This document shows, one piece after another, positions 13,883 through 28,687 of a stretch of 64,000 nt of DNA (the first letter of the stretch is position 1; every line of letters begins with the position of its first letter). This stretch comes from Kushneria indalinina DSM 14324. Its GTDB lineage: Bacteria > Pseudomonadota > Gammaproteobacteria > Pseudomonadales > Halomonadaceae. The notes under the pieces are model-generated. The model ran no database searches. It had not been told where the DNA came from and saw only the letters and a list, made by a program, of their open reading frames with translations. Both the position numbers and the translations under genes were made by a program. The stretch spans positions 461,380 through 525,379 of the forward strand of contig NZ_QRDJ01000007.1 of assembly GCF_003385845.1 (NCBI RefSeq), read 5' to 3'.

Positions 13883-14869
13883 ATGGCCACGGCAGAGCAA
13901 ATCAAAGCATTGTTGAGGAGCCACGCTGATCACGATGATCAGCGGTTCTACTCTATTGCTTTGCAAGTTGCGGCCAAAGAGGCCCGCAAAGGTCACCATA
14001 AGCTGGCAAACGAGCTCAAGGAAACGATTGAGCGCTCACAGAAGGCATCCAAAAGCCCTGCCGTTGTACCTTCCAATCCAACTCCTCTCGCCCAACACCC
14101 TAAAGGTGAATTGAAAGGGCTCCTCGAGCTGACGCACTCTACCTCTCGCAAAAATGAGCTGGTGCTGTCGAGTGAGGTAAGCGAGCGGTTGGATAAGGTA
14201 CTACTGGAGCAGCGGCAAAAAAGTCGCCTGTCTCAGTTCGGTCTTTCCCCACGGCGTAAGCTGTTATTTACTGGCTCTCCGGGCACGGGTAAAACCCTGT
14301 CGGCAGCTGTATTGGCCTCAGAGCTGAAGCTTCCGCTATACACCATCGTGTTGGATAACTTGATCACCCGCTTTATGGGCGAGACCGCCGCCAAGCTTCG
14401 ATTGATTTTTGATCACATCAAGCAAACGCGGGCGGTGTATCTGTTTGACGAGTTTGACGCGATCGGCACTCAGCGAGGGGCGACAAACGACGTCGGTGAG
14501 ATACGCCGCGTGTTGAACTCGTTTCTCATGTTTGTCGAACAGGACTCCTCTGAAAGCATCCTTTTGGCGGCAACCAATCATCCAGAACTGTTGGACAAAG
14601 CGCTCTACCGACGCTTTGACGACATTATTCAGTTTGAAAAACCCGGGCAGGCGCAAATCAAGCAGCTCATTGAAAATCGTCTCTCAGCATTTGAGACCGG
14701 GCGCCTGAACTGGGATGAAATCACTCAGACTGCATGCGGGCTAAGCTCAGCAGACGTCACCCGAGCCTGTGAGGATGCTGCCAAAGAAGCGGTTTTACAC
14801 CATGATGCCAACATCACCACTGGAATAATTATCAAGGCCGTGCAACGCCGACAAAATGGAAAGCATTAA
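13883..14869 (+). CDS. ietA: IetA-like AAA+ ATPase (defence/addiction pair)
   Basis: 328 residues. Residues 1-110 are helical and lack known motifs. The AAA+ core follows: Walker A Gly-Ser-Pro-Gly-Thr-Gly-Lys-Thr (131-138), pore-loop region Phe-Met-Gly-Glu-Thr (~164-168), Walker B Tyr-Leu-Phe-Asp-Glu-Phe-Asp (186-192), sensor-1 Ala-Ala-Thr-Asn (229-232) and an arginine-finger pair at 243-244. It looks active, of FtsH/spastin-like type. The subtilisin-like protease gene starts 9 bases after its stop. An ATPase plus S8 protease pair is the architecture of IetAS, described as a plasmid stability pair and later listed among anti-phage systems. Confidence 0.85.
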   Translation: MATAEQIKALLRSHADHDDQRFYSIALQVAAKEARKGHHKLANELKETIERSQKASKSPAVVPSNPTPLAQHPKGELKGLLELTHSTSRKNELVLSSEVSERLDKVLLEQRQKSRLSQFGLSPRRKLLFTGSPGTGKTLSAAVLASELKLPLYTIVLDNLITRFMGETAAKLRLIFDHIKQTRAVYLFDEFDAIGTQRGATNDVGEIRRVLNSFLMFVEQDSSESILLAATNHPELLDKALYRRFDDIIQFEKPGQAQIKQLIENRLSAFETGRLNWDEITQTACGLSSADVTRACEDAAKEAVLHHDANITTGIIIKAVQRRQNGKH

Positions 14870-14878
14870 GGGGGCTTC

Positions 14879-17398
14879 ATGGCGAATCAGAAACCGCATC
14901 TACTGTTAAGCGGTATCGGCCGCAATGAAGATTTTCAGTCCCGTAATCAAGCGAGAGGTTCCGGAGTTCCCCTCAGGGATCGTCATACACACGGTATCGC
15001 TTTAAAGCAACAGTACACCGATGCACTCGCCAGGCATCAGGCTCGCCAATCTGAGCCACCGATTCCTATTACTGAAGAAACGGGCATTTATGTTGAAATC
15101 GTAGGATTTGCGGATGCCGAGCTTCCACTCGATAAGCTTGATAATCGTGCTTTTGAGCTTCGATCGTGTCGCAAAGTGGATGGACGGGAAATAGCAACGG
15201 TATTTATTCCCGACCCCAAGAGAGACGCTTTCCAAAAGAAGGTTCATGAGTATCTTAATAAGGATAGAGCGAAGGGAAAGCCTGCCAATCAAGCCCTTAT
15301 CGACAGCATCGCTGAGATCAAGCTGGCAGACCTGCGTTCCTTCTGGACAGACGCTCAAGAGCTTTTCCCGGAACCAGCAGATCAGTCTGTATGGTGGGAA
15401 CTGTGGCTGAAAAAGCGGGCGACAGATCTATCTGCCAAAGAAGTGGCCGAGCAGCTTGCCGAACGGCTCAACGCTGAGCTGAGCAGCACCTCACTTAGCT
15501 TCTTCGATAGTTTCGTTATTCTCATCAAAGCGTCCGCTAAGCAACTTGAGTCGGCCCCAGAGCTTATTGCCAACCTTGAAGAGCTGCGCCGCGCCAAGCA
15601 GACCCCGAATGCATTTATCGCCATGCCCGCCAAAGAGCAACACGAGTGGGCCAATGAGTTAGCCGAAAGAATCCGAGTAGATGAAAGCACTACCACGGCT
15701 ATCACGGTGCTGGATACAGGGGTCAATTACTACCATCCAGTATTACGCCAGGTGACTACACAGCAGTTGGCACAAGCGTGGGAACCCAGCTGGCCTCTCT
15801 ATGATAACTACCAACCTACCTACTCCCTTGCGTCTTATAATGATCACGGCTCCAGGCAAGCGGGGTTGGCAGCTTTGGGAGAGCTGGATAAATCGTTACT
15901 CGCTACCCATGAGATTTGGCTCGCTTATCGAATTGAGTCTGGCCGCATACTGCCTCCAGCTGGCCAGAACGACCCTGAACTTTACGGGGCTATCACCGTA
16001 GGCACCGCAGCAAAGCTTGAAATTAATAACCCCGAATTTTCCCGCGTTTATTCTTTGGCGATTACCTCGCCTGCTGACTCAATCAGTGGGCAGCCTTCAT
16101 CCTGGTCTGCTGAAATTGATCAGTTTGCCTTCGGCCTGGAAGACGATCTACAGCGGCTGTTTGTAATTTCTGCTGGTAACAACCATACATTATGCGCAAC
16201 GGTGGATTACTGGGATCAGGTGCACCTCGCAGACATCGAGGACCCAGCACAGGCATGGAACGCCTTGACCGTTGGTGCCTATACAGAAAAAACAATCAAT
16301 GACGACCCAAGCTTTGCAGGCTGGGCACCCTTTGCGCACCCCGGAGATATCGCCCCTGCAAGCCGCTCATCGGTAAATTGGGGCTGGAAACAACAAGCGC
16401 CTTATAAACCGGACGTCGTCGCTGAGGGCGGTAATCGTTTGCTGTCACCTGACGGTACTGAAGTATCAGACGCTGATGTCGTATCGCTACTAACCACGTC
16501 AGGCAGAACCAGCGGGCTGTTATTCGAGATGACCAAGGATACCAGCGCCGCCTGCGCCCTAGTGTCCAGGCAGTCTGCGCTGCTAATGACGGAATACCCT
16601 GATTACTGGCCTGAAACAATACGTGGGTTAATTGTTCATTCAGCGGAGTGGACGCCCAGGATGTGGCAACGCTTTGGGTTGTTGCAAAAGAGTCAATCGC
16701 CCTCGAATGCTGCCAAGACGATGCTGCGATGCGTGGGATACGGTGTGCCGAGTCTGGCTCGAGCCAGATATAGCGCCAATCATGCACTGACACTGATCAT
16801 TCAGGATACCCTTCAGCCCTTCATTAAATCGGCGGACAAGGCTTCTGGCGATCCCAGACTGAACGAGATGCAGCTTTATCAGTTGCCTTGGCCTGTTGAA
16901 GAGTTGCGCAAACTGCCGCCAGAGCTGGACATCAAACTGCGCGTAACGCTTTCGTACTTTATTGAGCCTAACCCTGGCCGCAGAGGCTATCGCCAGCGCT
17001 ACAGCTATCAATCCCACGGATTACGTTTTAATGTCATTCGTCCCGGCCAGACCCTGGAAAACTTCCGTGCTGCCATCAATCGTGTGGCCAACGACGCTAC
17101 CGAGGACTATCAAGGGGTCGAAGGTGATGGAAGTGGTTGGCTGTTGGGATCCCGGATTAGAACCCGAGGTTCTTTGCACTCGGATACTTGGACAGGTCCA
17201 GCAGCGGATCTAGCCGATATGCATGCACTGGTGGTGTATCCCGTAGGCGGGTGGTGGAAATACCGTGCAGGTGAGGAGCGCTGGCAGAACCGTGTACGTT
17301 TTAGCTTGATTGTTAGCATCGACGTGCCGGATAGCGAGGTGGATATCTACTCAGAGGTTGAGAGCTTGATTGAAACCGACATCTCAGTGGAAACCTAG
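14879..17398 (+). CDS. ietS: IetS-like subtilisin (S8) protease
   Basis: 839 residues, no signal peptide, so cytoplasmic. A ~270-residue N-terminal domain precedes the peptidase fold. The triad is complete: Asp279 in Val-Leu-Asp-Thr-Gly-Val, His323 in Asp-His-Gly-Ser, Ser556 in Thr-Ser-Ala-Ala; the oxyanion Asn434 sits in Ile-Ser-Ala-Gly-Asn-Asn. The ~90-base spread and a C-terminal beta-rich region (residues 660-839) are as in large S8 members of two-gene defence loci. Partner of the ATPase upstream. In IetAS the protease is thought to be the toxic part held in check by the ATPase. The stop codon TAG straddles the insertion point of the IS remnant behind it but is unchanged by it. Confidence 0.87.
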   Translation: MANQKPHLLLSGIGRNEDFQSRNQARGSGVPLRDRHTHGIALKQQYTDALARHQARQSEPPIPITEETGIYVEIVGFADAELPLDKLDNRAFELRSCRKVDGREIATVFIPDPKRDAFQKKVHEYLNKDRAKGKPANQALIDSIAEIKLADLRSFWTDAQELFPEPADQSVWWELWLKKRATDLSAKEVAEQLAERLNAELSSTSLSFFDSFVILIKASAKQLESAPELIANLEELRRAKQTPNAFIAMPAKEQHEWANELAERIRVDESTTTAITVLDTGVNYYHPVLRQVTTQQLAQAWEPSWPLYDNYQPTYSLASYNDHGSRQAGLAALGELDKSLLATHEIWLAYRIESGRILPPAGQNDPELYGAITVGTAAKLEINNPEFSRVYSLAITSPADSISGQPSSWSAEIDQFAFGLEDDLQRLFVISAGNNHTLCATVDYWDQVHLADIEDPAQAWNALTVGAYTEKTINDDPSFAGWAPFAHPGDIAPASRSSVNWGWKQQAPYKPDVVAEGGNRLLSPDGTEVSDADVVSLLTTSGRTSGLLFEMTKDTSAACALVSRQSALLMTEYPDYWPETIRGLIVHSAEWTPRMWQRFGLLQKSQSPSNAAKTMLRCVGYGVPSLARARYSANHALTLIIQDTLQPFIKSADKASGDPRLNEMQLYQLPWPVEELRKLPPELDIKLRVTLSYFIEPNPGRRGYRQRYSYQSHGLRFNVIRPGQTLENFRAAINRVANDATEDYQGVEGDGSGWLLGSRIRTRGSLHSDTWTGPAADLADMHALVVYPVGGWWKYRAGEERWQNRVRFSLIVSIDVPDSEVDIYSEVESLIETDISVET

Positions 17399-18309
17399 GT
17401 TCTGTCTGAAAAGTCGGCTCTCATGCAACGCTTGATACGGTCCAGTGTCACCATGGCCCTGAAGCTGCTGGCCAGCTTGTCATTACGGGTGTTCAACCGA
17501 CGTCTTTCCTTTAACCAGCCGAATAGTCGCTCCACTACGTTGCGTTGACGGTATTTCGGTCGATCAAACTGATGTGACAGGGCCGGCCGTGGACGCCTGT
17601 GCATACGGCGCCGCGGGATGATCGGACGCATACCGTAACGTACGCAGTAGTGTAGTAGTGCATCGCTGTCGTAGCCCTTGTCCGCTACGATATAGCGCCT
17701 ACGTTTGCAAAGACGGCCCGCACGCCCCGGCAATCGAACCTTTTTCAATAGCCCGGTCAATTGTATCAAGTCGGCTCGCTGACCTGCTGATAAAGAGAAG
17801 GCGATTGGAAATCCACGGCTATCGCACAGCAGGTGCATTTTCGTGGTCAGCCCGCCCCGGCTGCGACCGAGCGCGTGGTTGGACGGTTCTATCGATCCCC
17901 CTTTTTAACAGCACCACTGGCCGACCGGGTCGCTCTTATGGATGTTGAATCCACCATCCATGTATTGATGTTCATATAACACCGTCTTCTCGCAGACGGA
18001 GATGCAGGCACGTCAGAATCCGGTCAAAAGTACCGTCATCACGCCAATGTCGAAAGCGCTGATAAACGGTCTTCCATGGACCGTAGCGCTTAGGGAGATC
18101 ACGCACTGCGCTCCTGAGCAGAGAATTCAGAAAATGCCATTGAGCATTTGGCGATCATTTCGGCAAGAGCATTCCATGGTCTGCTGTGGAGAAACAGTAT
18201 CCTCGATCACCTACCAGCGCTGATCGGAAAGCTCGTAACCGCTTGCCATGACAGTCTCCTGTTCAGTGAACAGAGGCAGCGTAGCAATCATGACCTTTCA
18301 GACAGAGCT
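17399..18309 (-). mobile_element. Degenerate IS5-family (IS427-like) element with both ends
   Basis: Terminal inverted repeats GGTTCTGTCTGAAAA (left) and, on the other strand, AGCTCTGTCTGAAAG (right), flanked on both sides by TA (17396-17397 and 18310-18311), the target duplication expected of this group. The transposase reads on the minus strand from Met-Ala-Ser-Gly-Tyr-Glu-Leu-Ser-Asp-Gln-Arg-Trp and is broken by stops and shifts in its first half; the DDE-domain second half (17395-17838) is intact with Val-Ala-Asp-Lys-Gly-Tyr-Asp-Ser-Asp and Arg-Asn-Val-Val-Glu-Arg-Leu-Phe. Immobile unless helped in trans. Confidence 0.88.
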
Positions 18310-18333: not shown

Positions 18334-19491
18334 TTACTCTTCATACTTCACGTCTTCGAATGCACTAATATCAATTTCCAATAGCTCAACAGGCCTGCTC
18401 TTTCTAACCCCAACTTGGTTTTCGACCAAAAGCTCAATAAGACGATCCCCATCAATAAGTGTTATAGGAGCAGCGCCAGGGAAAAGTGCTGCCTGCTCAC
18501 AGCTGCTGGCAAACTTTCCTAAAGTAATCAATGTACCTCGGATGGCTTTATGATAGGGCAAAGCTCCTCGAAGCTGGTCTAATACCGGGCGGATGATGCT
18601 ACCCTGCTGACGCTTGACTTGGACAACCTCTGTAATTGTTGTTATTCCTACTTGCACACTGCCTACTACATCTACGCCCTTATCACCGGATGCTTTAGTT
18701 ACTTCGACATCTTCGTAACCCATTGCCCGGAGTAGTTCTCCGATTAGCGCTTCAAACTGATAAGGGTCCATTGCAGCAAGATGATCTTTAAGCAGCTGTT
18801 TCTGCTGTAGATTGTAGCGATTCACTCCGCTGATAATGGCTTTGCGTGGATCATCTGGTTTTGCATCTAAGCTATTATTTATCCATTCGAGGCCGCAAGG
18901 TGATATCTGGTATCGATTACCTTGACGCTCTACGAGCTTACGAGCCACCAAGTTACTCAACCGCTGGTGCAGAGTAGTTTTGCAGGATGAATCAGAGGCA
19001 AATTTTGAAACCTGGTGCAGAAAGGCCATCCATTCAGGTAAAATATCGCTTCTTTTCGCCATTTCGAGACCCGAAAGTAGCTCAAGCAAAGCTAATAACC
19101 CCTCCTCGTCATCCAACCATTTAAGCGTAGCTTCATCCCTGTTTAAGAACTTCCGACCCCGCTTGGAGGGCTGCCAACAGCCAGAATCATCAACTTCCAT
19201 CAAATCGTAAGTTTTAATAAACAGCCAACTACCATAACTGTGTCTAGGGTTCACCACCTGATTATCAGTTTGCCAAATTTTCAAAGCCAACTCAGCATGC
19301 GCCCCCTCTAAGCGCTCAGCGATCCATGCATCCGGGTTAGACCAATCCACCGGATTCTTTGGCGTTCCGGTTTGATCTTGAATCGCTTTTATCATGTCAC
19401 GAATAGCTTTCGGAGCAATCCCGGTAGAGGCTTTCATCAGTGCCGCCGCTTGGGCATAGGCAGGAAAAAGAGGCATCCTGACTTTATGCAT
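18334..19491 (-). CDS. Mrr-like restriction endonuclease
   Basis: 385 residues. Residues 1-100 resemble the Mrr N-terminal winged-helix region (Pro-Leu-Phe-Pro-Ala-Tyr-Ala). The C-terminal ~140 residues are the Mrr catalytic domain: Ala-Met-Asp-Pro-Tyr-Gln-Phe-Glu-x-Leu-Ile, Met-Gly-Tyr-Glu-Asp-Val, Gly-Asp-Lys-Gly-Val-Asp-Val-Val and Gln-Val-Lys-Arg-Gln (the Asp and Gln-x-Lys active-site residues). Mrr cuts methylated or foreign DNA. Last gene of the type I operon, 72 bases behind hsdM, same strand, with AAGGA before the start. It may target methylated phage DNA that escapes HsdR, but could be independent. Confidence 0.85.
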   Translation of the reverse strand: MHKVRMPLFPAYAQAAALMKASTGIAPKAIRDMIKAIQDQTGTPKNPVDWSNPDAWIAERLEGAHAELALKIWQTDNQVVNPRHSYGSWLFIKTYDLMEVDDSGCWQPSKRGRKFLNRDEATLKWLDDEEGLLALLELLSGLEMAKRSDILPEWMAFLHQVSKFASDSSCKTTLHQRLSNLVARKLVERQGNRYQISPCGLEWINNSLDAKPDDPRKAIISGVNRYNLQQKQLLKDHLAAMDPYQFEALIGELLRAMGYEDVEVTKASGDKGVDVVGSVQVGITTITEVVQVKRQQGSIIRPVLDQLRGALPYHKAIRGTLITLGKFASSCEQAALFPGAAPITLIDGDRLIELLVENQVGVRKSRPVELLEIDISAFEDVKYEE

Positions 19492-19563
19492 TAGTATTTT
19501 CCTTTATAAATCATTTATGCCCGATTTATTCGGTTATCAGAAAATACTTGCAAGAAATAGGCT

Positions 19564-21006
19564 TCACTTTGCTTCTCCTTCCAGCTCTGCGCTCACACTG
19601 CGAAACTGCTCCAAGGCGGCCTCGAGGTTCTCGACAATTTCGGTGGCCAGCATATCCGGTTCTGGCAGGCTATCGAAATCCTCTAGGCTGTCGTCTTTCA
19701 GCCAGAAGATATCCAGGTTGAGCTTATCGCGTTGAATCAGCTCATCATAAGTAAAGCGGCGAAAACGTTCGGTTTCCTGGCGCTCTTGATAACAGCGCAC
19801 GAAGTCATCCAGATCGGATTGGATCAGGCGTTTGGTCTTCAGGGTCTTGTGGACATTAGTGCGGTAGTCGTAAACCCACAGCTCTTTCGTCTGGGCTTCC
19901 CGAGAGGCTGGGCGCTTGTCAAAGAACAGCACGTTGGCCTTCACCCCGGGGCTATACCAGATGCCGGTGGGTAGGCGCAGCAAGGTATGAAAATTGAAAC
20001 TCTCCAGCAGGCGCTTGCGGATACCCTCACCCGCCCGACCGGCCTCGAACAGCACATTGTCGGGTAGCACTACGCCCGCGCGACCGTGGGAGTCAAGAAT
20101 GGTCATAATGTGCTGAAGGAAGTTGAGCTGCTTGTTCGAAGTGGAGAACTTAAAGTCCTCACGCTCATAGCTCTCCCGCTCGGTGCTCACCGAGCCATCT
20201 TCCCCTACTACCGTGTAGCTGGACTTTTTGCCAAATGGCGGGTTGGTCAGCACAACGTCGAAGCGCTTACCACCGTCGCCAGCGAGGGCATCTCCTTGCT
20301 GCACGGGACTGCCACCGTTGTCGATGCCATGCAGGTAGAGGTTCATCGCACACAACCGCACCACTTCATCGACGATATCAACCCCATGCAAGGCTTTGTA
20401 CTTCAGCTGACGTAGCTTCTCGCGGTCCTGACTCTGAGTCTTCATGTGCTCGAAGCCAGAAAGCAGGAATCCCCCGGTACCGCAGGCGGGATCACAAACG
20501 GTCTCATCGATTTTAGGGTTGACGCACTTCACGATGGCGTCAATCACCGGGCGCGGGGTGAAGTACTGGCCAGCTCCAGAGCGCACCTCAGAGGCATTAC
20601 GCTCCAGCAGGCCCTCGTAGATCTGGCCCTTAACGTCTACCTTCAGGCCGACCCAAGGGCCTTCCTTGTCGATCAGGCTGACCACCCGTTTGAGCTTGGC
20701 CGGGTCGGAAAGCTTATTTTGGGATTTGCGGAAGATGGTGCCGATCAAGCCGCTCTCGCGGGCCAGGCCCTCCAGGGTATGGCGATACTGAAGCTCCAAT
20801 TCATCGCCATCCTTCTCTGCCAACTTTGCCCAGCGCCACTGGCTTGGGATGCAGGTCTTCTCGCCCAGCAGCTCCACACGTTCCTCATCCATCTTGAGGA
20901 ACAATAGATAAGTAATTTGTTCGAGATAGTCGCCATAGGAGACGCCTTGATCCCGCAGGACATGAGCATAGTTCCAGACTTTAGAAACGAGTTGTTCGTT
21001 GCTCAT
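19564..21006 (-). CDS. hsdM: Type I restriction-modification, N6-adenine methyltransferase subunit
   Basis: 480 residues. HsdM N-terminal helical domain, then the SAM-binding motif Asp-Pro-Ala-Cys-Gly-Thr-Gly-Gly-Phe (172-180) and catalytic Asn-Pro-Pro-Phe (255-258). Two HsdM with one HsdS form the methylase that protects host DNA at the asymmetric bipartite site read by HsdS. Unusually it is not next to hsdS: a TIR-domain gene lies between them with only 3 bases separating it from this start. GGGGA precedes the ATG. Confidence 0.96.
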   Translation of the reverse strand: MSNEQLVSKVWNYAHVLRDQGVSYGDYLEQITYLLFLKMDEERVELLGEKTCIPSQWRWAKLAEKDGDELELQYRHTLEGLARESGLIGTIFRKSQNKLSDPAKLKRVVSLIDKEGPWVGLKVDVKGQIYEGLLERNASEVRSGAGQYFTPRPVIDAIVKCVNPKIDETVCDPACGTGGFLLSGFEHMKTQSQDREKLRQLKYKALHGVDIVDEVVRLCAMNLYLHGIDNGGSPVQQGDALAGDGGKRFDVVLTNPPFGKKSSYTVVGEDGSVSTERESYEREDFKFSTSNKQLNFLQHIMTILDSHGRAGVVLPDNVLFEAGRAGEGIRKRLLESFNFHTLLRLPTGIWYSPGVKANVLFFDKRPASREAQTKELWVYDYRTNVHKTLKTKRLIQSDLDDFVRCYQERQETERFRRFTYDELIQRDKLNLDIFWLKDDSLEDFDSLPEPDMLATEIVENLEAALEQFRSVSAELEGEAK

Positions 21007-21009
21007 TCG

Positions 21010-21972
21010 TTATTCCCCTTGCAGCGGCTGGATTAGCAGAGACCAGTAATATTCCGCTGCCCCCTCTTGACTCAGGTTTGTGTCACTATCAGCCATGTTC
21101 AAAAGCGGCATGCCCATTGCTTGTAAAAAAAGCTTTTGACTATCCTTGCTCACGGACAGGCTTTCATTGTAGGTATTGGCAGCTGCATCATCGCCTTGAG
21201 AGTAGGAAATTCCATTACCGAACATTCCGCCTAAACGTATTGTACATGACGCTTTTTTTTGGCCATTTTGGTAGACCACAGCCGTAAAGCAGTTTCCATC
21301 TATACGGCGATAGCGAGTTTCGATACCAGCATTCCGCTCTTGTAATTCTGCAAGTGATCCATGGAAAAAACGGCCCAGGTACTCGAAGGAATCCAATAGA
21401 AATTGATCTTCCTCCGCTTTGGTGAATTCTTTCTTCAAGCGCAGATTGGAAGACCGAGGAAGCGACTCGTTCACTTCTCCATTTGCTGGCCTGTCTATGA
21501 AAGCATGATTCTGTCTAGGCGTTTTTGCTTGTCCAAGTTCTTCGATTGCACGGCGAATGGCTTGTGCAACATTGAGAAAAGCTTCGTCCCGATCAGCCCA
21601 CTGGGTGACAGGCTTACCGTCTTTCGGCGTAACAAGAAATTCTTGAAGCTCAGTATGTGGCCAATCACAAGGCCTGAGAATGACAGAGATCAGGCGTGCG
21701 CTACCTTCACGGTGACGCTCCAAAGCCCGCGCTTTCTCGATCTTATAGCAGTAGTCGGAGGCCAGAAAATTCGGGCTCACCAAAAGCAAAATTATATCGG
21801 CTTGATTCAACTCTTTATTGATGGTCCAGTCGAGGTGATCGCCGGGCAAGAGACGTCGGTCGTGCCAGACATCCACTAAGCCCTGCCTTTTGAGCATGGC
21901 GAGCTGAACTTCGAGTTGATCGCGTAGCTCCTCATCTATATGGGAATAGGACATGAAGACACGGGCTGCCAT
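21010..21972 (-). CDS. TIR-domain protein embedded in the type I restriction operon
   Basis: 320 residues from ATG at 21972 (GAGAGG upstream); the frame is open further up inside hsdS but without support. Residues 2-145 are a TIR domain: Val-Phe-Met-Ser-Tyr-Ser-His-Ile-Asp at the start, Asp-Val-Trp-His-Asp-Arg-Arg-Leu-Leu-Pro-Gly, Ala-Asp-Ile-Ile-Leu-Leu-Leu-Val-Ser, and Glu79 in Tyr-Lys-Ile-Glu-Lys at the place of the NADase glutamate. Residues ~195-320 form a second, unassigned domain with Phe-His-Gly-Ser-Leu, Arg-Tyr-Arg-Arg-Ile-Asp and Leu-Gly-Gly-Met-Phe-Gly. Bacterial TIR domains cleave NAD+ or make signals in defence. Lies 28 bases after hsdS and 3 before hsdM. Confidence 0.88.
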   Translation of the reverse strand: MAARVFMSYSHIDEELRDQLEVQLAMLKRQGLVDVWHDRRLLPGDHLDWTINKELNQADIILLLVSPNFLASDYCYKIEKARALERHREGSARLISVILRPCDWPHTELQEFLVTPKDGKPVTQWADRDEAFLNVAQAIRRAIEELGQAKTPRQNHAFIDRPANGEVNESLPRSSNLRLKKEFTKAEEDQFLLDSFEYLGRFFHGSLAELQERNAGIETRYRRIDGNCFTAVVYQNGQKKASCTIRLGGMFGNGISYSQGDDAAANTYNESLSVSKDSQKLFLQAMGMPLLNMADSDTNLSQEGAAEYYWSLLIQPLQGE

Positions 21973-22000
21973 TACAAACCTCTCCGATATACGTGGTTGT

Positions 22001-23473
22001 TCATGAGGCATTGGCTTTCTTACAGCCTCTCTGCTTCGGCTTGGCATCACGCTCGGCGTGGATGCGGGCCAGCAACTCGGTGGCGGGCTCATCTTCAGGG
22101 TCCTGGGGCACTAGTTTGCCAGCAAAGGCATCCTTGAGGATGGACTGGCGCAGGGCAACGGAGCGCGCGAGCTCGGTTCGGCACCAGTCTTCCAAATGCT
22201 CAATCTTGGAAAAGGCTTCGGAAATTGCCTCAGTAATCTGAAAAGCCTCCGATAGGCTTGGCACAGGAACAACCAGTGATTCAATCTTGCTAATACTCAG
22301 CGTGTATAGCCCTGACGTAGAGGACGCCACCTTCTCTATGTTTTGACGCCCATAGAATGATTGGAACCACCACAGTGCAAGCTCGACCAGTTGCTTATCG
22401 ATCATCCTGATTTTGATCAAGTGGTTTTGGTGCACAGCTTCAGGGATTTCGCATCGCCAAACAGCCATTCGACCAATTTGCCCCTTGCTTCCATTGCCTT
22501 CCACCACGAGGAGATCACGGTCTTCCAAGGCGACACGGGAAAGCTCTTTTTCAGAAACTCCCGTCTCGTGCATGTCTTCTAGGTCAAGCCTGTTCTGGTA
22601 GACATTTGCGACACGCAGCATAGGCTTCTGTATCGGCAGGCCCTCACGCTTGCTATTTTTTGTCAATCCCCCGATCACTTCAGCTAGTTGCTCAACCGAT
22701 GCCCATACCCACCCCTTGGGAAGCCTCGGCAGATCCCTGGTGTCAGGCACAGCAGGCTCCTTGTACTTACCCCGCCCCTGCCAATTCTCGCGCCGGGTCT
22801 GGAGGATGCGCTTCAGCAGGTCACCGCCAGACTCAAAGCGGTCGGCATTCTCGGCCCGCCAGTCGGCGGTTAGCTGGCCGGTGACAGCGGACTTAAGGAC
22901 GGACTGTCGATAGCGAACCAGTAGCTTCTGCACATCGCGAAGGCTGGCCTCGCCATGGTCGAGCTGGGCAAAAAGGGACTCGATCTTCTCAACGATGCGA
23001 CGTTGCTCGCTCAGAGGAGGAAGAGGAAACAATACATTTTTCAGGAGAGTCTGACTGATATTTTGCTGGGTGCCGCCTTGACCGAGAGCTATTAGATTTG
23101 GCTTGAGACGCATAAGGCCGAAAAAAAGAAAGTCTGCTTCAATCAAATCAGAAATAGGTTGGCAAAAGGCAATCGCTTGATTCGTGGAACAGGAGATTTT
23201 TGTTAAACCGAGCTTTCCGATTGATCCATACATCGCCACCAGAAGCGCTCCGCCCGGAATCAACTTAGCCGATGAAGCTTCAAGACCGGCTTGAGTAATT
23301 TTTGTTTCCGAAGACCAAATTAGGCCGTCTGTCAGATCGCCAATTTTCAGCCATGGAATGTCGCCACCGTAGAAATTTGGGTTCGTTTTAGAGGGCGTTC
23401 CGCCACTACCCCATTTCCCGAGATCACCAAGCTGAACGAGAATCCAATTTTTTGGCAAGTTCGCCGTCTTCAT
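22001..23473 (-). CDS. hsdS: Type I restriction-modification, specificity subunit
   Basis: 490 residues from ATG at 23473, which overlaps the hsdR stop by one base (TGATG). Two target-recognition domains, each with the type I S signature: Leu-Gly-Asp-Leu-Gly-Lys-Trp-Gly-Ser-Gly-Gly-Thr-Pro in the first half and Leu-Pro-Lys-Gly-Trp-Val-Trp-Ala opening the second; coiled-coil spacers of Glu-Gln-Arg-Arg-Ile-Val-Glu-Lys-Ile-Glu-Ser-Leu-Phe-Ala type separate them. It reads the two half-sites and anchors HsdM and HsdR. The recognised site cannot be derived from sequence alone. Confidence 0.95.
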   Translation of the reverse strand: MKTANLPKNWILVQLGDLGKWGSGGTPSKTNPNFYGGDIPWLKIGDLTDGLIWSSETKITQAGLEASSAKLIPGGALLVAMYGSIGKLGLTKISCSTNQAIAFCQPISDLIEADFLFFGLMRLKPNLIALGQGGTQQNISQTLLKNVLFPLPPLSEQRRIVEKIESLFAQLDHGEASLRDVQKLLVRYRQSVLKSAVTGQLTADWRAENADRFESGGDLLKRILQTRRENWQGRGKYKEPAVPDTRDLPRLPKGWVWASVEQLAEVIGGLTKNSKREGLPIQKPMLRVANVYQNRLDLEDMHETGVSEKELSRVALEDRDLLVVEGNGSKGQIGRMAVWRCEIPEAVHQNHLIKIRMIDKQLVELALWWFQSFYGRQNIEKVASSTSGLYTLSISKIESLVVPVPSLSEAFQITEAISEAFSKIEHLEDWCRTELARSVALRQSILKDAFAGKLVPQDPEDEPATELLARIHAERDAKPKQRGCKKANAS

Positions 23474-26235
23474 CAAGCCACCAGTACCTCTTGCAGATCA
23501 TTCAGCATTTCATTCAGTCCGTTACCCAGTACCTGTCTGGCGCGCAGGATACCACCCCGATCGGCAAGGCTGGGGACCTCCATGAAATCTTTCGGAGCGA
23601 TCTCGGCATTGGCAGCGAGATAGGCGGTGATGGCTCGCAGCCATGATTCCTGCTCGGCGTTGTATTCACGCCCGGCTTTCTTCTCGCGCCCGAGCCAGAG
23701 ATTGAAGCGGCGCTCTACCACGGCATCGATGGGCTCCAGAGCATCAACTTGGCCCAGGGCGTAGCGAACCAGACTGACCATCTCGGTGAGCTGATCGTCC
23801 ACCGGAGCACCACGTACTCGGGAGGCCTCCAGGCGCTTATAAGCTTGCCAGACATTGGCTACCGCCAAGTGAGGGGGCTTTTCCACCATGGTATGGGCCA
23901 GCTCGCGAATGGCAGCATAAGTCAGCCGCTGCTGGCCCAGCGGCTGATTGTAGAGGATCTGCAGGGCGGTCAGCTCGTCACGGTGCTCCTCAATAAAGGC
24001 CTTGAAGCTGGTGATGGTCTGCTCGGCCCGCTGATGGTCGAAGTCGGCATGAACCAGCGCATCCGTGGTCACCTCATCGATGACGATGTCGCGCTTCTGC
24101 TTGATCTCCTTTAGCAGGGTGCGAAAAGTCGGCTTGTCGAAGGGCCGGCAGGCCTCGTCCAGCAGCTCCTCCACTACAGCCTGTTCCTGCTCCGGCGTGG
24201 GGGAATACCCATGTCGCTCGGTGATAGCGGCCTGCTGGGTATCCGGGTCGATGGCACCAAGCAGCCGGTTGGCCAGCTGGCGAGGTGTCTGGCCGCCGCT
24301 GCTCTCGGCTAGGCGAGCGCGGTCCTCATCGGTCAGCTTGCGATCCAAGGATGCCAAACGAGCCGCTAGAGAGGAGACGGCGTCCTCATCACGCCGGCCC
24401 ATGGCGATCTGCTCGAGCAGGGCATCGAAACTGAGCGACGGCTTGCGCTCCAGGGGCTGGCTAGCGTTCTTCTTCGATTCCGTCACGCCAACGGCGTCGA
24501 TCAGGATGAAGCGGGTCTTGGTCTTGGCATCGGGAGTTACGGCCTTGAGATCAGCATCGGGAATGGTGCGCACGCCTCGTCCCTTCATCTGCTCGTAGTA
24601 GCCCTCGGATTTCACGTCGCGCATGAATATCAGCACTTCCACCGGCTTGATGTCGGTACCGGTGGCGATCATATCTACGGTGACGGCGACGCGGGGCATG
24701 GGATCGACCCGGAACGCCTTGATCAGTGCCTTGGGGTCCTCACCACTATTGCGGTAAGTGATTTTCTTGGCGAAGTCGTTACCCTCGCCGAACACCTCGC
24801 GCACAGCGTGGACGATCTCCTCGGCGTGGTTGTCGTCTTTGGCGAAGATCAGCGTCTTGGGCAGCCACTTCCTCGTGCGCTCCGGAAAGAGCTCGGTAAA
24901 CACCCGGTCACGGTAGGTCTGCAGCACGGTGCGGATCTGGTTAGGGTTCACCACCGAGCGATCGAGCTCCTTGCCGCTGTACGCCAGTTCCTCGTCCAGC
25001 GTCTCGTAGCGCAGACGCCGAGTGCGCCTGTCGCGCACCGGTACCTGGTAGCCCACGTCGCCGGGCTCCACCTTGCCGCCCTCTTCGGTGACCCGAGTGC
25101 GAATGCGGTAGATCTCATATCCGACATTGACACCATCGGCTACCGAACGCTCGTAAGGGTACTCCGCTACCAGGTTCTGATTGAAAAAGCCCAAAGTGTG
25201 CTTGGAAGGAGTAGCGGTCAGACCGATAAGCGAAGCATCAAAATACTCCAGCACCTGACGCCACAAACCATAGATGGATCGATGACACTCGTCGGTGACG
25301 ATAAAATCGAAAGTCTCAACGGGTATCTCCGGATTATAGGCCAGCGGCAGCGGCTCACCCTTTTCTATTCCCGATTGCTCAAAGGTGGAAGCCTCTTCCT
25401 CTTCCACATCCAGCTCTTTTCCGCACAACATAGAGTAGAGGCGTTGAATTGTGGTGATCACCACCTTGGCGTCCGTATCAATGCGATGACCATGCAGATG
25501 CTGAACGATGTAGGTGTCGGTGAAGCGGTTAGCCGCTCCCGTAGGCTGGAAGTTCTGGAACTCCTTGAGGGTCTGATCACCGAGGTTGTTACGATCAACC
25601 AAAAACAGGACGCGCTTGGCCCCGGCATGCTTTATCAATCGATAGGAAAAGGAGCAAGCCGTAAAGGTCTTGCCCGCGCCGGTAGCCAGTTGAATCAGTG
25701 CTCGCGGGCGATCCTCAGCGAGGGAATGCTCCAGTCCCAGGATGGCCTCAACCTGGCAATCCCGTAGTCCCTTGGTTTCCAGTGGTGGCATCGTGCACAG
25801 CCGGGCGCGCAAAGTTTCTGGCTGGCGTAGCCACTCCTGCAGTGTTTCGGGGCGGTGAAAGGCAAACAAGCGACGTGAGCGAGGCTTGGGGTCACGCAGG
25901 TTGCAAAAAAAGGTTTCTTCACCAGTGCTTTCGTAATGGTAGATGAGCTGATCATCCCAGCGGGCCAAGTGTTCGGGCAGGGCAGCTACATACTTGGCTG
26001 ACTGCTCTGCTACGCCACTGAGGGTTACCCCAGCCTTTTTGGCCTCGATCACCCCGGCTGCTTTGCCGTCAATGAACAGCAGGTAGTCGCAGTAGCCGGC
26101 TGGTAGGGGGAACTCGCGTACCGCCACGCCTATCGCTGCCTTGCGATCGAATTGGTCCCTATTTTGGATGACCCAGCCGGCATCAATTAAAAGCTGGTCG
26201 ATCTTGATTCTTGCTTTTTGTTCAGGCTGTTGCAC
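23473..26235 (-). CDS. hsdR: Type I restriction enzyme, R (motor/nuclease) subunit
   Basis: 920 residues from GTG at 26235, chosen because GAGGGGGAG stands just upstream; an ATG 14 codons earlier has no ribosome site. The N-terminal nuclease shows Asp50 and Glu64-x-Lys66 (Gly-Val-Ile-Glu-Ala-Lys-Lys). The SF2 translocase follows with Walker A Ala-Thr-Gly-Ala-Gly-Lys-Thr (184-190), Thr-Asp-Glu-Cys-His-Arg-Ser and Gly-Leu-Thr-Ala-Thr-Pro. HsdR moves on unmethylated DNA and cuts at a distance. It is the first gene of the operon, with hsdS, TIR, hsdM and the Mrr-like gene behind it. Confidence 0.95.
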   Translation of the reverse strand: MQQPEQKARIKIDQLLIDAGWVIQNRDQFDRKAAIGVAVREFPLPAGYCDYLLFIDGKAAGVIEAKKAGVTLSGVAEQSAKYVAALPEHLARWDDQLIYHYESTGEETFFCNLRDPKPRSRRLFAFHRPETLQEWLRQPETLRARLCTMPPLETKGLRDCQVEAILGLEHSLAEDRPRALIQLATGAGKTFTACSFSYRLIKHAGAKRVLFLVDRNNLGDQTLKEFQNFQPTGAANRFTDTYIVQHLHGHRIDTDAKVVITTIQRLYSMLCGKELDVEEEEASTFEQSGIEKGEPLPLAYNPEIPVETFDFIVTDECHRSIYGLWRQVLEYFDASLIGLTATPSKHTLGFFNQNLVAEYPYERSVADGVNVGYEIYRIRTRVTEEGGKVEPGDVGYQVPVRDRRTRRLRYETLDEELAYSGKELDRSVVNPNQIRTVLQTYRDRVFTELFPERTRKWLPKTLIFAKDDNHAEEIVHAVREVFGEGNDFAKKITYRNSGEDPKALIKAFRVDPMPRVAVTVDMIATGTDIKPVEVLIFMRDVKSEGYYEQMKGRGVRTIPDADLKAVTPDAKTKTRFILIDAVGVTESKKNASQPLERKPSLSFDALLEQIAMGRRDEDAVSSLAARLASLDRKLTDEDRARLAESSGGQTPRQLANRLLGAIDPDTQQAAITERHGYSPTPEQEQAVVEELLDEACRPFDKPTFRTLLKEIKQKRDIVIDEVTTDALVHADFDHQRAEQTITSFKAFIEEHRDELTALQILYNQPLGQQRLTYAAIRELAHTMVEKPPHLAVANVWQAYKRLEASRVRGAPVDDQLTEMVSLVRYALGQVDALEPIDAVVERRFNLWLGREKKAGREYNAEQESWLRAITAYLAANAEIAPKDFMEVPSLADRGGILRARQVLGNGLNEMLNDLQEVLVA

Positions 26236-26449
26236 ATTCTCCCCCTCAATCCTAGATACCGTATGGGCACGAGCCATGGCTGCCCTTTGCAGCCCCATCC
26301 CTGGGGAGCCTTGATCAGACGGCAACTTGTGTTCAATACTTCACAATTGTTAATACAATGCTAAAAAATGATTTACGCAATAATACCGGCTCAAGCCAAC
26401 GATTTCTTGCTGGACTCAAAGCATTTTTATCGGCTTGATTTCCCTATTT

Positions 26450-27226
26450 ATTGAGAACAGGTATTCAACCGGCGCTTTTCCTTCAACCAGTCAAACAGAC
26501 GTTCCACCACATTGCTCTGACGATATTTCGGTCGGTCAAGTTGATACGGTAGGCCCAGACGTGAACGTCGACGCATGCGGCGTCGAGGAATAATCAGACG
26601 CGTGCAGTACCGTCGCAGCACATCGCTGTCGTAGCCCTTGTCTGCCACGACATAACGGCTGCGTTTGTGAGGCCGCCCCGAACGACTCGGCAATCGTACC
26701 TTCTCCAGCAGCCCAGCCAAGTGAAGCAAGTCGGCGCGCTGGCCCGCGGAAAGGGAGAAGGTAAGAGGAAAGCCCTGGCTATCGCATAGCAGGTGTATTT
26801 TCGTGGTCAGCCCACCACGGCTACGGCCGAGGACTTATTCCGGCGGTTCTATAGATTCCCCTTTTTACCGGCACCGCTGGCCGACCGAGTTGCTCTGATG
26901 GACGTTGAATCCACCATCCAGACAGGTTATCAAGATTTATGGTGCCGTCCTCACGCATACGAAGATGCAGGCGCGTCAGTATTTGGTTGATTCAGGGACA
27001 ATAACGCTCCGGCAGATCACGCCGCTATGCAGCGGAGCAGAGAGTCCAGAAAATGCCATTGAGCATTTGGCGATCATTTCGGCAAAAGCATTCCATGGTC
27101 TGCTGTGGAGAAACAGTATCCTCGATCACCTGCCAGCGCTGGTCGGAAAGCTCGTAACCGCCTGCCCCGATGGTCTCCTGTTCAACGAATAGGAACAGCA
27201 TAAAAACCATGACTTTTCAGACAGCC
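26450..27226 (-). mobile_element. Second degenerate IS5-family copy, truncated at its left end
   Basis: The right inverted repeat GGGCTGTCTGAAAAGTCAT (minus strand) ends at about 27226; the left end is missing, the transposase frame breaking off at 26459 after Arg-Arg-Leu-Asn-Thr. The first half has stops and shifts; the second half (26448-26729) still reads Val-Ala-Asp-Lys-Gly-Tyr-Asp-Ser-Asp. Clearly related to, but diverged from, the copy at 17399. It stands upstream of hsdR, so two such copies bracket the restriction operon. Confidence 0.85.
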
Positions 27227-27772: not shown

Positions 27773-28687
27773 TTACGCACCATACAACTCCTTAACAAAG
27801 ACTATTTTTCTCTCACGCCACCTATCATTAATTCTTTTATCTGTGTAGTCAAAATATTCAATTTTTAAATATTCCATATCTGATTCCCAATCAGCAATAG
27901 CTTTCGCAAAATCGCCATCTCTTCTTTTAATATTACGGCAAAGCGATGATATAGTGTTACCCATCTTCATCAACCTGCCCATTGTTCCGGGCTTACCCCA
28001 CTGTTCTACATATTTTTTTTGCACTCCTCTACTTTCTAGATCCGCATTTACAAGCTTGTCTAATATTAATCTCCTTTTAAGCAATTCAACCCCTTTTTCC
28101 CCTACATGATATCCGAATGAATCAAGAACCCCGTTGGAAATCCAAGTTATTTCTCGCAATTCCTGTAACGATTTAGGGGCTTCGCTTGTTGGCCATTTTA
28201 AAAATCTCTGGATTTCCTCTTTCAATACAAAATCGTTGCGTTGAGAGCGGAAAGACATCAAATCCTCTTTAATCTTTTTGATATCTTGTATGTCAGGTAT
28301 TTTCTTCTCACAAAGAAGCTTGTAGCACTCGAAAGAAATCAAATAATTATCAGTAAGATCAATTAAGCTCTTTTTTGACTTATGCCCCTTACAAACCAAT
28401 TCTTCTGCGCTGTTCGTTTTTAATTTAACATATAAAAATGTAGATAAATAACTTATAAACAAGGTATTTTTTGTGCCTGAAAAACTTATCAACTTTTTTA
28501 ACTTGTTAAAATCACCATTACTTGTTTCCCACAAAAAATTGGCATAATGATCTTCAAAAATTTTTGCCGCCCCTCCAACTTTACTTTTTAGCAAGCCACT
28601 CTCCGTCCAATATTCGAGCCCGTTCATAATGAAATTAAATTTTTTATTGTCCGAAAACCCCAATTTGTATAGATCTTTTTTTTCCAT
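27773..28687 (-). CDS. Hypothetical protein, AT-rich island gene
   Basis: 304 residues, AGGA ten bases before the start. Lys-, Phe- and Ser-rich with no signal peptide, no membrane segment and no motif I know. Mostly helical by composition; the middle (Ile-Lys-Lys-Ile-Lys-Glu-Asp-Leu) is charged. It is strongly AT-rich compared with the core, like the unknown gene at 7215-8105, and lies at the far end of the island between two IS remnants. Being beside a defence cluster makes a defence role possible but there is no direct evidence. Confidence 0.65.
   Translation of the reverse strand: MEKKDLYKLGFSDNKKFNFIMNGLEYWTESGLLKSKVGGAAKIFEDHYANFLWETSNGDFNKLKKLISFSGTKNTLFISYLSTFLYVKLKTNSAEELVCKGHKSKKSLIDLTDNYLISFECYKLLCEKKIPDIQDIKKIKEDLMSFRSQRNDFVLKEEIQRFLKWPTSEAPKSLQELREITWISNGVLDSFGYHVGEKGVELLKRRLILDKLVNADLESRGVQKKYVEQWGKPGTMGRLMKMGNTISSLCRNIKRRDGDFAKAIADWESDMEYLKIEYFDYTDKRINDRWRERKIVFVKELYGA

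Follow-up and report, generated by a model that had tools for sequence, protein, structure and literature searches.

In the gammaproteobacterium Kushneria indalinina DSM 14324, a gene for a protein with a TIR domain stands between hsdS and hsdM of a type I restriction-modification operon, and the locus raises the question of whether this protein is a working part of the restriction machinery or an independent effector housed in its operon. The window analyzed here is a 64,000-nucleotide stretch of contig NZ_QRDJ01000007.1 (positions 461,380 to 525,379 of the forward strand; assembly GCF_003385845.1), and its own numbering is used for all window coordinates. Comparison with related operons indicates that the hsdS–hsdM junction is a variable cargo slot in this hsdM subfamily, and the TIR protein is probably, though by no means certainly, an autonomous effector carried in that slot and co-expressed with the restriction genes as a layered defense.

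Organization of the operon

Five minus-strand genes occupy positions 18334–26235: hsdR, hsdS, the TIR gene, hsdM and a gene for an Mrr-type nuclease, each an open frame without internal stops. The product of hsdR (23473–26235; 920 aa, GTG start) matches the Pfam families ResIII (2.1e-36) and EcoEI_R_C (2.8e-31), with HSDR_N falling marginally below the Pfam cut-off (23.2 versus 25.1 bits). HsdS (22001–23476; 491 aa, TTG start) matches Methylase_S (4.8e-31) and contains two target-recognition stretches, and HsdM (19564–21006; 480 aa) matches N6_Mtase (7.9e-68) and HsdM_N (4.9e-15). HsdR, HsdM and HsdS, the gene set of a type I restriction-modification system, are encoded together, and the operon is an ordinary one of this type, arranged as hsdR-hsdS-[cargo]-hsdM and with the Mrr-type nuclease gene behind it. 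The 994-base slot between hsdS and hsdM (21007–22000, minus strand) holds nothing but the TIR gene (21010–21972; 320 aa; Pfam TIR_2, 1.4e-14).

The gene order given in the preliminary description was confirmed, together with its coordinates, its spacings of 28 bases between hsdS and the TIR gene, 3 between the TIR gene and hsdM and 72 between hsdM and mrr, and the tight packing that they imply. Its gap of -1 between hsdR and hsdS fits an ATG one codon further on, whereas counting from the TTG start of hsdS gives an overlap of 4 bases. A ribosome-binding sequence, GGAGAGG, precedes the ATG of the TIR gene. The AAGGGG sequence that would serve hsdM overlaps the TIR gene at its 3' end, and translation of hsdM may therefore depend on the gene before it. 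We infer that all five genes are expressed together. A scan for consensus sites returned 5 promoter and 6 terminator matches; shuffled sequence would give 5.8 and 9.4, so there was no excess. The G+C content of the TIR gene is 48.4%, compared with 58.5% for hsdR and 55.6% for hsdM. A megablast search against E. coli genomes found nothing near the operon.

The hsdS–hsdM junction as a cargo slot

To place this arrangement, related operons were sampled by hsdM (E ≤1e-120) in 274 genomes of the class (20 matches), 398 of the phylum (15) and 151 of the family (5), the window being counted each time. Beside the window's own gene, 35 distinct hsdM matches were obtained (19 from the class, 12 more from the phylum and 4 more from the family), one of which, L109, was also met in the search for TIR relatives; loci are designated by L numbers throughout. 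Twenty-five were usable, with hsdS and hsdM visible on one strand. The ten dropped were interrupted by contig ends (L081, L088, L089, L096, L098, L116, L119 and L121) or had no hsdS that could be found (L085 and L095).

The preliminary description had regarded hsdS and hsdM as usually adjacent, which does not hold for this subfamily: at least one gene separates them in 23 of the 25 operons. In the two empty cases, L113 and L143, hsdS and hsdM overlap by 4 bases. In every filled slot, one or more of the cargo genes could be matched to Pfam or PADLOC, and the contents are diverse. They include a two-gene CBASS comprising a cyclase and a patatin phospholipase (L082), Septu PtuA with a partner (L090), DarTG (L092), AbiD (L093), IetAS (L146), GmrSD (L091 and L097), Fic (L086), HEPN (L112) and RES (L114) proteins, DUF3800 (L094 and L117), DUF4917/PDC-S21 (L122), a NucS-like DUF5655 protein (L080), a reverse transcriptase with PIN and an AlbA_2-like protein below the cut-off (L115), a marginal Mrr_cat match (L120), a TIR protein (L109) and ATPases not specific to defense (L084). 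The commonest cargo is an AlbA_2 protein of Schlafen type whose C-terminal part resembles RecG, found above the Pfam cut-off in 5 of the 23 filled slots (L083, L087, L118, L144 and L145). Several of these systems are known to act by themselves. In this hsdM subfamily, the hsdS–hsdM junction is a variable cargo slot.

Relatives of the TIR protein

A scan of genome contigs yielded 27 TIR loci, of which 24 encode the protein in full length, and the addition of further genomes and plasmids brought the neighborhood set to 48 full-length TIR proteins, including that of the window. Three partial sequences (L013, L027 and L029) and one interrupted by a stop (L105) were left out. The hsdR-hsdS-slot-hsdM layout with TIR in the slot is found in 8 of the 48, namely the window, L003 (whose hsdR lies beyond the contig end), L004, L005, L006, L008, L011 and L109. 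In three more, the TIR gene directly follows hsdS in another layout: hsdM precedes hsdS in L099 and L026 and lies beyond the contig end in L025. Two have hsd genes nearby but are not joined to them (L024 and L108), two stand behind a reverse transcriptase (L126 and L127), and 33 have no visible hsd or reverse-transcriptase neighbor, although L007, L015 and L124, counted as free, have their upstream side cut short. A same-strand gene between hsd genes is thus a recurrent arrangement, and the TIR protein is embedded in type I operons in the accepted sense. The link with type I genes, which the preliminary description had proposed to look for in other genomes, recurs in 11 of the 48 full-length relatives; it is therefore neither confined to this genome nor unconserved.

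On the TIR tree, the eight slot rows require three changes, at least two of them forced by well-supported branches, and the three rows of the order hsdM-hsdS-TIR require two. The L109 protein is about 40% identical to the rest and sits on a long branch of unsure placement. The well-supported clade containing the window protein comprises 11 rows, seven in slots and four free (L007, L009, L010 and L012), L007 being the one cut by a contig end. Gaps between the TIR gene and hsdS or hsdM range from -4 to 28 bases in eight loci (window, L004–L006, L008, L011, L099 and L109). The TIR gene shares its slot with GmrSD in L004 and L008 and with a NucS-like gene (PDC-S18) in L003, L005, L006 and L011; in the window and L109, it has no further neighbor there.

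As a control, 18 short loci (1.9–3.7 kb) encoding TIRs without this C-terminal domain, 16 of them model-recognized TIRs, were inspected, and none contained hsd genes. Fisher comparison with the family's 11/48 gives p 0.052 for the 16 loci and 0.028 for all 18; with L024 counted (12/48), the values are 0.028 and 0.027. These values carry little weight, given short control flanks and samples that are biased and not independent of one another.

Other neighbors of TIR relatives outside hsd operons were also noted. The plasmid loci L126 and L127 (5780–7957) have a retron-like arrangement, in which a helix-turn-helix gene and a reverse transcriptase gene are followed after 19–20 bases by the TIR gene; the L127 enzyme matches PADLOC RT_VI (1.2e-85). 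The window operon has no reverse transcriptase gene beside its TIR gene. In L007, L012 and L129, a gene for a NucS-like or DUF91-type nuclease (PDC-S11 in L129, 1.2e-19) follows the TIR gene outside hsd operons, hinting that TIR and nuclease may be a recurrent pair. Among free-standing relatives, a protein of about 100–135 aa is encoded immediately upstream of the TIR gene in L021, L023 and L107, and one of about 160–195 aa immediately downstream in L020, L046, L106 and L124.

A cargo-free relative and the HsdM clade

The closest comparison is offered by L143, from another genus of the same family, whose HsdR and HsdM are 90.5% and 92.3% identical to those of the window and which is sister to the window on the HsdM tree (support 99). 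Its slot is one of the two empty ones, and the family search found no TIR gene elsewhere in its genome at E 1e-40. The operon can therefore exist without the TIR gene. The window operon is either that of L143 plus an inserted TIR gene or the state from which L143 lost it, the data being compatible with both directions. Neither the TIR gene nor this hsdM occurs in any of nine other congeners covered by the family searches, and the operon itself is therefore a recent arrival.

All eight TIR-bearing slot operons fall within one HsdM clade of 13 (support 100), and none of the 20 other sampled operons has TIR in its slot; this proportion (8/13 versus 0/20) means little, because seven of the eight are either the window or loci that the TIR search brought in. 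The slot is visible in five clade members recovered by hsdM (L080, L109, L112, L113 and L143) and in the window itself; of these six slots, two contain TIR, one a NucS-like protein, one HEPN and two nothing.

The TIR protein

The protein matches the PADLOC ThsB1 model PDLC00420 over its full length (residues 3–318, 7.2e-121). Its TIR domain spans residues 1 to about 155, of which TIR_2 covers 5–110, and residues 1–155 align with many solved TIR domains at VIA Z scores of 13–17. Glu79, within the segment SPNFLASDYCYKIE (codon 21736–21738, minus strand), is invariant in 48/48 full-length relatives, the window counted. By its sequence motif, we take it to be the putative NADase glutamate, and the predicted protein thereby keeps the conserved glutamate expected of a TIR NADase, in agreement with the preliminary description. 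S8, Y9, D13, G31, W36, D38, G44, S72, Y74 and C75 are likewise invariant in all 48.

A poorly predicted linker joins the TIR domain to a C-terminal domain. The preliminary description had put this second domain at about 125 residues; the domain is real, but it extends over residues 172–320 (149 aa; 21013–21459, minus strand) and is predicted to consist of a helix, six strands and a helix. Modeled alone by AlphaFold2, it reached a predicted local distance difference test (pLDDT) score of 84.2 and a predicted template modeling (pTM) score of 0.79. Its RSSN motif (residues 173–176) and F203, S206, E209, R213, N269, E270, E307 and W310 are kept in 41–48 of the 48 relatives.

Fold searches with the whole protein returned TIR domains, which swamped any C-terminal match. 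For the C-terminal domain, Foldseek gave no PDB match at E ≤0.001 (best 0.035), viral models gave none at the same threshold, and a sequence profile retrieved a single PDB chain (E 0.87). The best VIA-align 2 match, to frataxin, had Z 8.1 and a root-mean-square deviation of 4.0 over 109 residues at 5% identity, which lies in the common range of the tool. The absence of a convincing match is no proof of a new fold. No Argonaute, CARF or other known sensor domain was recognized in this part of the protein. The domain is matched in 22 plasmid records, of which 11 were looked at in their genomic setting. The matched feature is annotated as a TIR protein in 18 of the 22; the other four comprise one hypothetical protein, two featureless matches and one unannotated record, which gives no indication that the domain occurs on other proteins. 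Among 50,697 phage records, no relative of the TIR protein was found.

The Mrr gene and the surroundings of the operon

The last gene of the operon (18334–19491, minus strand; 385 aa) encodes an Mrr-like nuclease with an Mrr_cat domain (2.9e-28) and matches the PADLOC candidate family PDC-S02 over its full length (7.2e-184). Mrr beside type I genes is a textbook arrangement in E. coli. At E 1e-60, homologues were present in three plasmid-collection records; the closest of them, 62% identical, comes from an E. coli record, where it has yjiA as a neighbor and stands 3 kb upstream of a type I hsdR. In three of the 35 sampled hsdM loci, an Mrr-like gene comes after hsdM, directly in L088, at a distance of 126 bases in L098 and of 994 bases in L082.

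The hsd-TIR-mrr island is bracketed by two degenerate direct repeats, at 17485–18305 on the left and 26457–27224 on the right, whose aligned pieces are 75.8% identical over 476 bases and 88.9% over 190. Both are associated with fragments of a transposase gene that we take to be IS5-like (17395–17838 and 26448–26729, both on the minus strand), and the encoded fragments are 69% identical over 94 residues. The repeats resemble a worn composite transposon. An IetAS system (13883–17398, plus strand), composed of an AAA ATPase and a subtilase, adjoins the operon (PADLOC IetA, 9.0e-79; IetS, 1.6e-26). The same system, which stands beside the operon in the window, lies inside the hsdS–hsdM slot in L146 (5897–9415), where IetA and IetS share 50% and 38% identity with their counterparts in the window. 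Beyond the right-hand repeat, 27773–28687 (minus strand) encodes a 304-aa protein with no Pfam match over the cut-off and no PADLOC or NCBIfam match. Elsewhere in the genome, contig C7 contains a second TIR cluster (L101, 7019–9599) of genes overlapping head to tail, which encode a ThsB-like TIR protein of 175 aa (PDLC00431, 7.5e-14), a protein of 392 aa that exceeds the TIR_2 cut-off and a neighbor of 293 aa that looks SLOG-like by eye.

An autonomous effector or a part of the restriction machinery

If the TIR protein is an autonomous effector, HsdRMS would cut unmodified phage DNA, Mrr would cut wrongly modified DNA, and the TIR protein would form a separate layer, consuming nicotinamide adenine dinucleotide (NAD+) or making an NAD-derived signal once its own C-terminal domain sensed infection, with its triggering independent of the Hsd proteins. 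The slot would probably persist since cargo placed there is expressed and transferred along with a selfish restriction system, and the hsdM-last order would keep the operon working. We favor this autonomous reading because the cargo is varied, cargo-free relatives exist and relatives of the TIR protein occur outside hsd loci. Several observations weigh against it. The genes are tightly packed; sampling of the TIR family was biased toward close relatives of the window protein; and between L004 and L005, the neighboring gene was swapped and TIR retained. Distances between TIR proteins correlate with those between HsdM proteins over the seven slot loci other than L109 (r 0.68; 48 of 5040 permutations as high) and with L109 included (r 0.88; 44 of 40320). 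TIR and this hsdM lineage have therefore for the most part traveled together, and such a stable pairing would also be expected from functional coupling; the co-inheritance fits a functional tie and also fits simple linkage.

The strongest form of such a tie would be a guard resembling PrrC, in which the HsdRMS complex would silence the TIR protein until a phage anti-restriction protein blocked or remodeled the complex, whereupon the TIR protein would deplete NAD+. By analogy, there is a precedent: PrrC, whose gene lies within a type IC operon, is activated when the T4 peptide Stp blocks EcoprrI (PMC12707154, PMC2610378). The repeated entry of TIR into hsd loci (three changes for the eight slot operons and two more for the three of other layout), its tight apposition to hsdS or hsdM in eight loci and the correlated distances would all suit a guard. 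However, the slot is promiscuous and hosts systems with sensors of their own, the operon occurs without TIR in L143, most examined TIR relatives have no hsd genes even within the window's own TIR clade (L009, L010 and L012), and HsdS, the likely contact, is strongly divergent between TIR-bearing operons (29–54% identity). We consider such a guard unlikely. Little credence is also given to a broader version, in which the junction would be a dedicated effector port and the restriction complex would gate any cargo or be coupled to it in translation; a block of restriction or lost translation of the cargo would then alter the HsdM supply or free the effector, and the TIR protein would be an NAD-depleting fuse wired to the type I enzyme, the TIR counterpart of PrrC. 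The proposal of the preliminary description, that the genes form a dedicated combined system or that the TIR protein steps in when restriction fails, is likewise unsupported, given that the slot holds many unrelated self-sufficient systems, that the near relative L143 is cargo-free and that most examined TIR relatives lie away from hsd genes. The cargo seems to be new and the arrangement a known one; the locus does not look like a new machine.

The full-length ThsB1 match and the second TIR cluster on contig C7 raise a different prospect, that the protein acts as a ThsB whose cyclic ADP-ribose signal is received by a ThsA-like protein from elsewhere in the genome. This is a decidedly doubtful alternative: the five operon genes and three further neighbors include no ThsA match, and the ThsA model PDLC00416, which matched one of the 15 genomes searched (that of L006), has no match in the window genome. 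PDLC00415 found none there either, in a weak search in which the controls were silent too, and other ThsA models may exist. It is more improbable still that the TIR gene is an inert or decaying passenger, recently inserted and functionless in this host. Its lower G+C content, the position of the island between degenerate repeats and the absence of TIR and of this hsdM from the nine other congeners would agree with recent insertion; yet the frame is open over its full length, all catalytic-type positions are kept, a ribosome-binding sequence precedes the start codon and co-inheritance among relatives has been long.

If the autonomous reading is correct, a TIR effector is added to the cargo list of type I operons, and one hsdM subfamily is found to have its hsdS–hsdM junction filled far more often than empty. 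Because it is mostly filled, this junction is a practical place to seek new defense genes, and nameless cargo within it is a good candidate. The window and L143, with and without TIR, form a near-isogenic natural pair for probing crosstalk between cargo and restriction. Were the guard to prove correct instead, a second and chemically different effector wired to a restriction enzyme would have been found.

Comparison with known systems

Among TIR proteins, the window protein shares the N-terminal TIR fold with SPARTA TIR-APAZ, Cat1 and AbTir, but differs from them in having no recognized Argonaute, CARF or other sensor domain. It is related to Thoeris through its membership in the ThsB1 family of PADLOC and differs from that system in its C-terminal domain and in the lack of a ThsA that adjoins it or is matched in the genome by the two ThsA models.

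In Campylobacter jejuni, rlo and mlo genes, that for RloC among them, lie inside hsd loci. The embedding of defense genes in type I operons is already in print, and the arrangement described here is therefore of a known kind. In the literature searched, whose coverage excluded preprints (Payne et al. 2024 among them), most subscription papers and supplements, there was no TIR gene in an hsdS–hsdM junction and no published count of how often that junction is filled. A survey of Pseudomonas islands reports that most type I systems of one hotspot hold a second defense system and describes this as an already observed trend (PMC12629846).

With PrrC and EcoprrI, the window operon has in common an effector gene embedded among hsd genes; PrrC, however, is a tRNA nuclease of a type IC locus under the control of EcoprrI, whereas here the embedded gene encodes a TIR protein in the layout hsdR-hsdS-TIR-hsdM. 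The RRDM island of enteropathogenic E. coli, which is reported to be active against phages, carries DarTG2 between hsdS and hsdR (PMC12255303). That island resembles the present family of operons in enclosing a complete defense module within a type I operon and differs in the junction used, since the slot here is that between hsdS and hsdM, where the relative L092 carries its DarTG. A further parallel is provided by the embedded candidates of PADLOC, the PDC families, which have been traced to Payne et al. 2024 and their "guilt-by-embedding" approach (PMC12988326). They represent the same phenomenon, and two of them recur at these loci: the window's Mrr protein belongs to PDC-S02, and the NucS-like slot gene of its relatives to PDC-S18.

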